Shown here: one piece after another, positions 20,703-39,086 of the stretch
Position numbering within the stretch: the stretch's first letter is position 1
How the letters are laid out: each line of letters starts with the position of its first letter
Assembly (NCBI GenBank): GCA_003712125.1
Contig: RHLF01000002.1
Span: 682,001-746,000, forward strand
DNA from: Allomuricauda sp.
Lineage (GTDB): Bacteria > Bacteroidota > Bacteroidia > Flavobacteriales > Flavobacteriaceae
Length of the DNA stretch: 64,000 nucleotides
Direction of reading: 5' to 3'
Program-made: the position numbers and the translations under genes
The notes under the pieces: model-generated
Databases searched by the model: none
What the model was told of the DNA's origin: nothing
The model's input: the letters and a program-made list of their open reading frames with translations, nothing else

Positions 20703-20705
20703 CAA

Positions 20706-21632
20706 CTAATCAATACGAATGGTTCGCTTGAATTCTTGTACAACTGCGAAATAACCAAGGGCAAAGGAATCTGGTCTGCCCACATTGTCAAAAATTTCAA
20801 TATTATCCAAACCCGTTACATCAAACATATTGCCTCGAACTGTGGCTGCTGGGGTTTCAAAAACACCTCCGTCATTTTCCGTTTGTTCGACTAGAAGATC
20901 TATATAATTAAAAAATTGCTGGTCAGCACCTAAAATACTGATTTCCAGTTCTGTGCCACTTTGTAATTCTTCATCGTAAAAGTAAGAAAAGCTAAATTCT
21001 TGTCCGTCTATAAACTGGTCATCCGTTGCCAAGAAGTTGCCAAAGCCAAAATCAAAAACATAAAAGTCTTGTTGATCAGGTACATCGGTGAAGGTGACGA
21101 CAATCTCTGTTTCATCCTCGTCAAAAAGGGTTTCTGTGCCTTGTTCCAGATTGTCAATCGGTACAGTGGGCGCATAATTGGTTTGACCTGCATAACGCCT
21201 TCCTTTATGTTCAACAACAAGAAAAAAAATGGTGTTCTCATTTATGGATGCGGTTCGGATTCTGTCATCGACATCATTGCCGATGGTATCAGGCTCATAA
21301 ATACCAGTTCCTGGAACATATTCACGCAAAATTGAGGTGCCCAATTGGAATTGTGTCGGCTCCAACGAATCCCTAACTCCGGCCAAAATAACAGCACTTT
21401 CAAGTTGTGTGATGGTATTCTCACCAAAAAATCCTGACGATTCAGTGACCCTTATTTCAATTGGTAAGAATTCTTGATTTTCATCCACTCGAACAACACC
21501 ATTAATAACCAATCGGGTTTCGGGTTCGGGTAATCCAACATCGATAACATCTTCACAGGAGGTGAAAACCAATAAAACCGCGATGATTGGCAGGAGAAAC
21601 TTAGGTGTGGCTACAGCACTAAAACTATTCAA
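20706..21632 (-). CDS. DUF4249 family lipoprotein (second copy)
   Basis: 308 residues. The signal ends in a lipobox FTSC (Cys26) followed by EDVIDV, an acidic stretch after the Cys that in Bacteroidota favours export of lipoproteins to the cell surface. The mature part is beta-rich: TRLVINGVVRVDENQEF, a HKGRRYAGQTNY segment, and a C-terminal block that is almost identical to the next gene upstream (44 of 49 aligned residues in the LGADQQFFNY to TGLDN block). DUF4249 genes usually lie just downstream of a TonB receptor. It overlaps the first copy by 8 bp and is the last gene of the three-gene unit. Function unknown; a substrate-binding or receptor-cap role is inference. Confidence 0.85.
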   Translation of the reverse strand: MNSFSAVATPKFLLPIIAVLLVFTSCEDVIDVGLPEPETRLVINGVVRVDENQEFLPIEIRVTESSGFFGENTITQLESAVILAGVRDSLEPTQFQLGTSILREYVPGTGIYEPDTIGNDVDDRIRTASINENTIFFLVVEHKGRRYAGQTNYAPTVPIDNLEQGTETLFDEDETEIVVTFTDVPDQQDFYVFDFGFGNFLATDDQFIDGQEFSFSYFYDEELQSGTELEISILGADQQFFNYIDLLVEQTENDGGVFETPAATVRGNMFDVTGLDNIEIFDNVGRPDSFALGYFAVVQEFKRTIRID

Positions 21633-25020: not shown

Positions 25021-27300
<2,280 letters not shown>

Positions 27301-27302
27301 TC

Positions 27303-27688
27303 ATAAAAACAAAAGCCATACCTATGCCTGAACATTGATATGGCTTTCAGGAAAAACTTACAAACTTCAATTTCGCGTCAGACGCTCAATTTCAGCCATT
27401 GACTGGTTTGTATTGTTTTTCAACGTTTAAGTGTAATCCTGTTTTTAATTTTTCAACTAAACCACTGTTTTACACCTGTTTGTTGCATCTAAGATTTATC
27501 AAAACTGAAAATTGCTCTTCTGTTCGCACATAAACCTTTTTGTAGTTTCTGGTTTGCCGTAGCTTCCCATCTGCTACAATACTTTTTGATTAGTAGTGTA
27601 ACCAATTAAAAAGTGAAACAACATCATAAAGAACGTCAACTTTACTTCGACTCCAACTCACATACCGAAGCGTGCTTGTTGTTATCTT
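27303..27688 (-). ncRNA. Candidate unannotated RNA in the icd-rplS gap
   Basis: The gap between icd and rplS (27241-27827) holds no reading frame of useful length on either strand. On the minus strand there is a promoter-like TTG-N19-TACATTTA (27693-27722). About 340 nt further on lies a 9-bp perfect inverted repeat AAAGCCATA / TATGGCTTT (27312-27320 and 27339-27347), followed on the minus strand by TGTTTTTAT, as in an intrinsic terminator. Between them would lie a transcript of about 385 nt. It contains a small hairpin (GTAGC / GCTAC near 27559-27576). I looked for conserved RNase P, tmRNA and SRP RNA motifs and found none. A decayed mobile-element remnant is an alternative. Confidence 0.35.
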
Positions 27689-27692
27689 GAAG

Positions 27693-27722
27693 TAAATGTA
27701 TAATAAAAAAGTTGTCATGCAA
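27693..27722 (-). promoter_or_regulatory. Promoter-like element inside the icd-rplS gap
   Basis: Minus strand: TTG, 19 nt, TACATTTA (one mismatch to TAnnTTTG). It points leftward into gene-free sequence, not toward a known gene. Confidence 0.4.
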
Positions 27723-27781
27723 GATTTCTAACGAACTAAAAATCAACATAATATGAACCACACTTATTAACAATTGTTCAT

Positions 27782-27806
27782 AAAAAAAGGCGTCCATTGG
27801 ACGCCT
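27782..27806 (-). terminator. Intrinsic terminator of rplS
   Basis: Minus strand: AGGCGTCC, AAT loop, GGACGCCT, then TTTTTT. A perfect 8-bp GC-rich stem with U-tract, 22 bp after the rplS stop. Confidence 0.9.
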
Positions 27807-27827
27807 CTATATATCGTGTGGTTTTTG

Positions 27828-37661: not shown

Positions 37662-39086
37662 TTAAGTGAATTTTTTGTTCAGATCTTCAATATATTTCCT
37701 GAACTGCTTATCAGTTTCTGAAAGATTGTCAACTGTTTTGCAGGCATGTAGTACGGTAGCATGGTCTCTTTTTCCAATTTGAGAGCCAATACTTGCCAAA
37801 GAAGCTTTGGTGAATTTTTTTGCAAAGAACATGGCCAACTGACGTGCCTGAACAATATGTCGTTTGCGTGTTTTGGATTGTAATGTGGCCACATCCATTT
37901 CGAAATAGTCTGAGACCACTTTTTGGATGTAATCAATCGACACTTCCCTTTTGGTGTTTTTCACAAATTTTTCGACAACCTGCTGGGCTAACTCTAAGGT
38001 AACCTCTCTTTTGTTGAAAGAAGATTGGGCTATTAGAGAAATAATGGCCCCTTCAAGTTCACGAATGTTTGTTTTTATGTTTTTCGCAACGTGGTCAATA
38101 ATTTCTTCTGGCATTTCAACCCCATCTCGATACAGCTTGTTCTTGAGAATACTGATGCGAGTTTCATAGTCAGGGCTCTGGAGTTCAGCGGATAGACCCC
38201 ATTTAAAACGTGAAAGCAGCCGCTGTTCGATGTCTTGCATATCAACGGGTGCCTTGTCTGAAGTTAAGATGACTTGCTTGCCATTTTGGTGCAAATGGTT
38301 GAAAATATGGAAGAACACATCTTGGGTACCCGACTTTCCTGAAAGAAATTGTACGTCGTCAATTATTAGAGTGTCTATTAATTGATAGAAATGAATAAAG
38401 TCGTTCCTTGTGTTCTTTTTTACAGACTCGATGTACTGCTGGGTAAATTTTTCGGCAGAAATATAGAGCACTGTTTTTTCAGGATATTTGTCCTTGATTT
38501 CAACGCCAATGGCATGCGCCAAATGCGTTTTTCCCAAACCTACACCCCCAAAAATGAGTAATGGGTTAAACGATGTGCCTCCCGGTTTGTTGGCAACAGC
38601 CATTCCAGCGGATCGAGCCAAACGGTTGGAATCTCCTTCCAAGAAATTCTCGAAGTTGTAACTAGGGTTGAGCTGTGATTCAATTTTGATATTTCGTATA
38701 CCAGGAATCACAAACGGATTTTTTAATTCTGGGCTTTTAGAGGTTACTGGAACATCCAACTCTTGAGGTGCCATGGAAGAACGATTTGCACTTGGTATTT
38801 TTTCAGTGAAAGGTTCACTGTTACCATATTTGTTCTCCATTTTTATGATATAGATAAGCTTGGCATGTTCTCCCAATTCTTTTGTTAGGGCAACTTTGAG
38901 CAATTTAACATAATGCTCTTCCAGCCATTCATAAAAAAATTTACTTGGTACTTGAATGCTCAAGGCGTTATCCGTAAGCCGGATTGGTTTGATGGGTTCA
39001 AACCAAGTTTTGAATGCCTGCGGTTGGATATTGTCTTTGATAAAGGCCAAACATTTATTCCAAACCGAGTCTGCCGTGACATTCAT
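37662..39086 (-). CDS. dnaA: Chromosomal replication initiator DnaA
   Basis: 474 residues, all four domains. Domain I about 1-80 (VWNKCLAFIKDNIQPQAFKTWFEPI); a linker; AAA+ domain with GGVGLGKTHLAHAIG Walker A and LIIDDVQFLSGK Walker B, sensor LLSRFKWGL; and domain IV with KRHIVQARQLAMFFAKK and IGSQIGKRDHATVLHACKTV, the DnaA-box-binding signature. It opens oriC. The gene is followed by the LMW phosphatase and methylase, not by dnaN. The 205-bp upstream region contains a 13-bp palindrome but no cluster of DnaA boxes that I can see. Confidence 0.97.
   Translation of the reverse strand: MNVTADSVWNKCLAFIKDNIQPQAFKTWFEPIKPIRLTDNALSIQVPSKFFYEWLEEHYVKLLKVALTKELGEHAKLIYIIKMENKYGNSEPFTEKIPSANRSSMAPQELDVPVTSKSPELKNPFVIPGIRNIKIESQLNPSYNFENFLEGDSNRLARSAGMAVANKPGGTSFNPLLIFGGVGLGKTHLAHAIGVEIKDKYPEKTVLYISAEKFTQQYIESVKKNTRNDFIHFYQLIDTLIIDDVQFLSGKSGTQDVFFHIFNHLHQNGKQVILTSDKAPVDMQDIEQRLLSRFKWGLSAELQSPDYETRISILKNKLYRDGVEMPEEIIDHVAKNIKTNIRELEGAIISLIAQSSFNKREVTLELAQQVVEKFVKNTKREVSIDYIQKVVSDYFEMDVATLQSKTRKRHIVQARQLAMFFAKKFTKASLASIGSQIGKRDHATVLHACKTVDNLSETDKQFRKYIEDLNKKFT

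Follow-up and report, generated by a model that had tools for sequence, protein, structure and literature searches.

The 587-base gap between rplS and icd in Allomuricauda sp. (positions 27241 to 27827 of the window, i.e., the whole stretch of 64,000 nucleotides that was analysed) probably harbours, in single copy, an independent RNA gene whose structured non-coding product would be about 385 nt long. Read along the minus strand, the proposed order of elements is a palindromic element, which would bind a regulator of the RNA's promoter, followed by this promoter, the RNA itself, its intrinsic terminator, and a separate promoter box for icd. Comparison among relatives indicates that the RNA is under selection in sequence and structure and has start and end signals of its own, and by the same comparative evidence it appears to represent a genuine structured-RNA family absent from Rfam 15. 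As in independent small RNA genes, an own promoter and terminator (both as sequence signals) were found together with compensatory base changes. The transcript is presumably stable, and the finished RNA would work in trans.

Both flanking genes are encoded on the minus strand, with rplS (ribosomal protein L19; 27828..28178; Pfam PF01245, E 4.2e-42) upstream and icd (monomeric isocitrate dehydrogenase; 25021..27240; Pfam PF03971, 1286 bits) downstream. The icd start is predicted to be the ATG at 27240 (MAKIFYTK) rather than that of a longer ORF from 27273, since the Pfam match starts at residue 3 counted from 27240 and the longer ORF would overlap the conserved icd promoter box. The intrinsic terminator assigned by sequence to rplS (AGGCGTCC..GGACGCCT plus a T-run; 27782..27806, minus strand) is a hairpin with letters that, by eye, change among relatives. 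A sequence-only reading of the window had called this gap its largest gene-free stretch; the region 20703-21624 is longer and has no ATG ORF of 100 aa, but it contains a TTG-start ORF of 308 aa, which leaves the rplS-icd gap as the longest by that ORF list. The TTG-start ORF itself (20706-21632, minus strand) is easily mistaken for a gap. Two further RNA elements were observed upstream of rplS: in the window an L19-Flavobacteria ribosomal leader (RF03130; 28205-28232, minus strand, 41.8 bits), which is of the same kind as the L19 leaders reported for Flavobacteria (PMC7247131), and in one relative a Flavo-1 RNA (RF01705; L103:3787-3857).

Relatives were taken from one rplS protein scan, as the best 80 of 536 confirmed loci, among which the top-scoring named loci for the rplS of the window were those of Flagellimonas species. 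The icd gene is found downstream of rplS in 67 of these 80 loci, and the gap measures 400-1100 nt in 58 of the 67; the remaining nine, with gaps below 400 or above 1100 nt, were excluded, so that 59 gaps, including that of the window, were aligned. Most of them have kept the palindromic upstream element, the promoter, several hairpins, and the terminator, while much else varies. Common to most are a hairpin with a UUnACGUU-like loop, an AAACG word located some 200 nt further on, and a terminator of the form AAAGCCAUAU..AUAUGGCUUUU. Fewer conserved elements were recognized in distant genera, e.g., Joostella, Galbibacter, Zhouia, and Leeuwenhoekiella. When the gap was used as a DNA query, 20 of 60 genomes gave a match, among them that of the window, and matches beyond the genus mostly covered the upstream element and the terminator. 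Conservation in 58 loci plus the window rules out a decayed element, which had been the alternative offered by the earlier reading.

The promoter and the terminator lie where that reading had placed them. The promoter (27722-27693, minus strand) is of the Bacteroidetes type and is recognized by its conserved sequence, with a -33 TTG (27722-27720), a spacer of 19, and a -7 TACATTTA (27700-27693); judged by these boxes it is housekeeping-type. The pattern TAnnTTW is present at this position in 51 of the 59 aligned gaps, and the full form TTG-N17-22-TAnnTTW near this site in 38, whereas 200 single-base shuffling rounds gave 6.2 on average and 12 at most. Upstream of the promoter, a conserved palindromic element (TTATGAACAATTGTTAATAA..GTTCATA..TGTTGAT; 27742..27783, minus strand) probably serves this promoter as an operator or activator site. 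Its words recur anywhere in the gap in many of the 59 sequences (TTATnAACA in 50, AACAATTGTT in 37, and TGTTGAT in 44), and the exact word AACAATTGTTNATAA has a single site in the window's genome, before the RNA promoter. The latter word was also seen in other Flavobacteriaceae genomes, where five of 13 places inspected lie before gyrB (L167, L170, and L173) or before carB (L168 and L171); gyrB (L167) and carB (L168) were named by Pfam, and the genes at L170, L171, and L173 by similar N-termini. The palindrome box may be linked to growth or to DnaA, with a candidate regulator shared with gyrB and carB.

The RNA's intrinsic terminator (AAAGCCATATC..GGTATGGCTTT plus a T-run; 27304..27347, minus strand) is supported by sequence and conservation and consists of a stem at 27347-27312 with a T-run down to 27304. 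The letters of its proximal stem, AAAGCCAU/AUGGCUUU (27347-27340 and 27319-27312), are nearly invariant among relatives. Since a terminator requires pairing only, such invariance may point to the RNA's 3' end having a sequence-specific role.

Between these signals, the structured RNA is assigned to 27304..27688 (minus strand) on the basis of covariance model, covariation, and fold energy, with its start predicted from the promoter. Counted from about the promoter to the T-run, the length is 378-392 nt in 17 Flagellimonas-type sequences including the window, the starts having been placed partly by rule and partly manually. Folded as RNA, 27693-27304 yields -107.8 kcal/mol (z = -4.79), and none of 100 dinucleotide shuffles reached a value as low. 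With the terminator removed (335 nt), the RNA strand had a mean z of -3.2, with 47 of 55 gaps below -2 and the window at -2.7, whereas the opposite strand had a mean z of -1.0, with 11 of 55 gaps below -2; this comparison employed 30 shuffles per gap and the 59 gaps minus four that lack a simple hairpin pattern.

The proposed fold would start with a predicted 5' hairpin (27644..27693, minus strand), obtained from the single-sequence fold, of which the first few bases may precede the start site; by eye, like hairpins of differing sequence are present in relatives, and they are outside the structures in which covariation was counted. It would be followed by the hairpin TAAAG-[TTGACGTT]-CTTTA (27627..27644, minus strand; loop 27639-27632), which is supported by covariation, with both-sided changes at four of seven stem pairs in the Maribacter-type set and at one of seven in the Flagellimonas-type set. 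The loop of this hairpin would pair with a stretch located some 200 nt further downstream, enclosing several stem-loops, after which a 3' domain (27304..27427, minus strand), which is the part modelled in R1 and R2 (see below), would form a closing stem around two hairpins and end in the terminator. The proposed partner of the loop is its complement AACGTTGA (27420..27427, minus strand). This long-range pairing, between loop UUGACGUU and partner AACGUUGA with the word AACGU(C/U)(A/G)(A/G), comprises eight pairs in the 17 Flagellimonas-group sequences, in which 98.5% of the cells are paired, the exceptions being the first pair in two sequences. The window's lowest-energy fold contains part of it, and in Maribacter types about five of the eight pairs are possible by eye. 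We consider the pairing likely; since it is kept through one-sided changes alone, with no both-sided change and an invariant core, the data are only compatible with it.

Compensatory base changes support the branched fold in two clades, each aligned by sequence only. In the full-length Flagellimonas-type set (n = 17, including the window), both-sided changes occurred at 51 of 114 pairs, compared with 28.8 in shuffled and at most 31 in slid controls, and 144 double-changed cells were counted (46.5 shuffled; at most 64 slid). The Maribacter-type set, i.e., Maribacter, Arenibacter, Zobellia, Kriegella, and others like them, gave both-sided changes at 46 of 90 pairs (25.3 shuffled; at most 29 slid) and 154 double-changed cells (51.6 shuffled; at most 48 slid) for 20 full-length sequences, which remained of 22 chosen after L071 and L075 were skipped. 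In both clades the number of pairs with both-sided change exceeded all 500 shuffles and every slid control; these controls leave shared ancestry in, and the structures were predicted by RNAalifold on the same alignments on which they were scored, that of the Flagellimonas type being edited by removal of a few weak pairs and addition by hand of the long-range pairing. For the Maribacter-type 3' domain (n = 23), aligned by sequence only, a structure of 42 pairs drawn by hand on the alignment on which it was scored was 95.5% paired and had 48 double-changed cells, against 13.1 in shuffled and 6-14 in slid controls. Refitting of this domain to 76 matches (69 distinct) displayed both-sided changes at 33 of the 42 pairs, in an alignment fitted to the structure. 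The 3'-domain set shares 19 loci with the Maribacter-type full-length set, and the two full-length sets share none.

Covariance model R1, built on the 23 Maribacter-type 3' domains with the window excluded, finds the window at 73.7 bits (E 3.7e-17), while R2, of which the window is a seed member, scores it at 85.5 bits. The match of a model trained without the window, together with the conservation and covariation, sustains the earlier proposal of an RNA of about 385 nt, and the alignment of gaps from relatives with its pairing test, which that reading had suggested as a check, came out in favour of an RNA with conserved sequence and pairing. Among the best 80 of 536 loci, R1 matched within the gap at 40 bits or more in 50, of which 23 are its seeds. 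In 199 Flavobacteriaceae genomes (one per genus), R1 gave 29 matches of at least 55 bits, G000 included, and 131 at E <= 0.001. At E <= 0.001, R2 had matches in 42 of the 296 genomes searched from the order and in 22 of 198 from a sample of the phylum; among the matches listed, all above 51 bits belong to Flavobacteriaceae. An 82-nt match of 50.9 bits in G613, a genome outside the family, and a second place of 35.5 bits in G000 are probably terminators. These two values render matches of about 30-50 bits with either model unsafe, and the tally of 131 of 199 is therefore an overestimate. Weaker matches in G011, G012, G016, G017, and G018 are probably real, since they lie about 300-600 nt from an upstream element found by DNA search. 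By these models, the RNA appears to be restricted to Flavobacteriaceae and to be spread unevenly there. In the window's own genome it occurs at one place, other matches being weak or the terminator read backwards. Moreover, five loci with icd beside rplS have gaps of only 98-241 nt without an R1 match there, and of three such short-gap genomes that were searched two had no match and one a match of 34.5 bits, which is within noise; the five loci indicate that the RNA can be lost.

The RNA persists when its neighbourhood is broken up. R2 was used to search 18 genomes with unusual neighbourhoods, of which 11 have icd more than about 4 kb from rplS; these 11 represent the 13 loci without a nearby icd, with L050 and L099 left out. 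The RNA was found elsewhere in 10 of the 11 (59.7-119.6 bits), i.e., in Poritiphilus, Muriicola, two Eudoraea MAGs, Zeaxanthinibacter, three Robiginitalea, and two Flavobacteriaceae genomes, and the eleventh, a Flavobacterium MAG (L109), gave no R2 match. Two of the ten (the genomes of L073 and L081) share their coordinates with L155 and L154 of the R2 training set, so that their matches are not independent. In all ten the RNA lies directly before icd, with a like upstream word about 430-460 nt 5' of the terminator. As the RNA persists where icd is away from rplS, rplS is not a required partner.

An RNA with these properties could pair with messengers as an antisense-type small RNA, like Rfp18, a tentative reading that is one form of the trans-acting RNA and overlaps with it in probability. 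An independent promoter and an intrinsic terminator, as found here, are typical of antisense-type sRNAs. Such sRNAs exist in Flavobacteriaceae (PMC9723704), but at about 385 nt the present RNA is twice the median of 176 bp given there, and by eye there is no long unpaired segment common to both clades. A protein-binding RNA, forming an RNP or acting as a scaffold, appears somewhat more likely than a simple antisense sRNA, given the branched fold, the possible long-range closure, and the fact that, by eye, the two clades share no long unpaired segment. A broader and more speculative proposal, which we regard as rather improbable, is that it constitutes a family-wide housekeeping RNA of the Flavobacteriaceae, with a standing like that of 6S RNA or tmRNA, that would form an RNP and be tied to growth or replication by the box also found before gyrB and carB.

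The RNA might also act in cis, as a leader of icd starting at about 27690 that senses a metabolite or a protein and in which the terminator at 27304-27347 is switched to control icd. Its position directly upstream of icd, its staying with icd rather than rplS in 10 of 10 rearranged loci, and the attenuator-like layout of a terminator ahead of an ORF agree with this reading, although staying with icd is weak evidence, since little free space flanks the RNA unit. Against an attenuator argues, firstly, that a conserved promoter box of icd itself follows the terminator, with a -7 box TATATTTG (27260..27267, minus strand) 19 bases before the icd start; 49 of the 59 gaps have the pattern TAnnTTWG within their last 75 bases, a count that rises to 50 if the pattern is widened slightly, compared with 4.3 in single-base shuffles. 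Secondly, no competing antiterminator better than chance was found when the 5' arm of the terminator was paired with the upstream RNA (mean z -0.2; three of 55 gaps below -2). Finally, in Olleya (L074) another gene intervenes, the order being the RNA (a weak match of 39.9 bits, although inspection by eye shows the upstream element and also a terminator in which one change compensates another), a pentapeptide-repeat gene, and icd, apparently with another promoter. The pentapeptide-repeat gene is located at L074:5050-5622, and proteins alike by eye are encoded before icd in two Lacinutrix loci. A leader of icd is thus considered unlikely, and the RNA most likely acts in trans.

It is highly improbable that the gap is instead a DNA element, e.g., a replication origin, with the upstream palindrome resembling inverted DnaA-type boxes. 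The dnaA gene (37662-39086) lies 10 kb from the gap, and box-like repeats (TTATGAACA / TGTTAATAA) are present in the palindrome; however, of 15 matches in the window to the DnaA-type box consensus TTATCCACA (at most one mismatch), none is in the gap. In one complete relative, skew values that are mostly negative up to 1.72 Mb give way to mostly positive ones at 1.9 Mb and beyond (twenty noisy 10-kb samples, of which eight of ten agree on each side), placing the minus-to-plus switch away from the gap. An origin would also leave the covarying stems, the strand-specific folding, and the promoter and terminator unexplained. In these 20 noisy samples (G002, C1), the GC-skew changes from plus to minus near dnaA (coordinate 0) and from minus to plus near 1.8 Mb; by the usual rule, dnaA and the RNA would then be on the terminus side.

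There is very little probability that the transcript is the messenger of a small protein. Short ORFs are present, as in any sequence, but those inside the gap are all short, and no ATG ORF of at least 20 aa is shared by all 17 aligned sequences, L042 being without any of that length, and the stems covary; this agrees with the earlier reading, which had seen no useful ORF. An overlooked housekeeping RNA (6S, RNase P, tmRNA, or SRP RNA) has a negligible probability, as its only favourable point, a size close to that of RNase P RNA and tmRNA, is set against the lack of any Rfam family at threshold in the gap, the comparison by which SRP RNA was assessed, and against 6S-Flavo, RNase P RNA, and tmRNA each scoring above the family cut-off elsewhere in the genome.

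Scans with Rfam 15, including 6S-Flavo, as the sequence-only reading had advised, returned no family at gathering score in the window gap and no family match in the gaps of 12 relatives; at E <= 10 the gap gave only sub-threshold matches (SprD, mir-268, and others), which we attribute to chance or to the rplS terminator. RNase P RNA (RF00010) has no match in the gap and is encoded at C3:117121-117427, and tmRNA (RF00023) likewise has none, ARAGORN finding none in the window, and is encoded at C2:160706-161105. Among the open-licence PMC articles listed, no title or abstract start reports an RNA between rplS and icd in Flavobacteriaceae.

To our knowledge, the RNA biology of Flavobacteriaceae has been little studied. 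The family is a major component of life in soil, marine, and freshwater habitats (PMC9723704). The strong structural selection, the single genomic place, and the persistence after the neighbourhood was broken up mark the RNA as a candidate for a general role in the cell. It is directly testable by means of the covariance models, the proposed fold, and the boundaries, and it belongs in genome annotation.

Several known RNAs provide a framework for comparison. The suggestion that the RNA could be of 6S type fell away: 6S-Flavo (RF01685) has no match in the gap at gathering score or E <= 10, and the genome's copy is located at C2:425538-425647. Moreover, 6S RNA forms a long hairpin with a large central bubble, unlike the branched fold with many stem-loops predicted here, and 6S-Flavo, an RNA gene that one search recovered from 37 of 37 Flavobacteriaceae genomes, has 108 model positions compared with about 385 nt for the present RNA.

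Rfp18 and other Rfp sRNAs of Flavobacterium psychrophilum are likewise independent transcripts from the same bacterial family, some with strong predicted folds and conservation beyond the species, but the Rfp-containing transcripts are described as short (PMC9723704). In genus g147, which is perhaps Flavobacterium (a guess), five of the 19 listed genomes matched the RNA at E <= 0.001 (best 51.9 bits), and 14 had no match.

The icd and icd-II motifs, riboswitch candidates of Proteobacteria, are also structured RNAs upstream of icd; they are described as three-stem junctions, the first stem of icd-II holding the icd ribosome site (PMC8632094). Compared by description, the present RNA differs from them in ending in a terminator, in the separate icd promoter box, and in belonging to another phylum. 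Its last stem is the terminator, the T-run of which stops 63 bases short of the icd start, the promoter box lying in between, and the ribosome site of icd is not located in a first stem of the window RNA. Finally, OLE, GOLLD, HEARO, and ROOL, to which the Rfam scans of the gap gave no match, are large structured bacterial RNAs that are longer than the present RNA and, like it, are long, branched, supported by covariation, and of a function that is not obvious from sequence.
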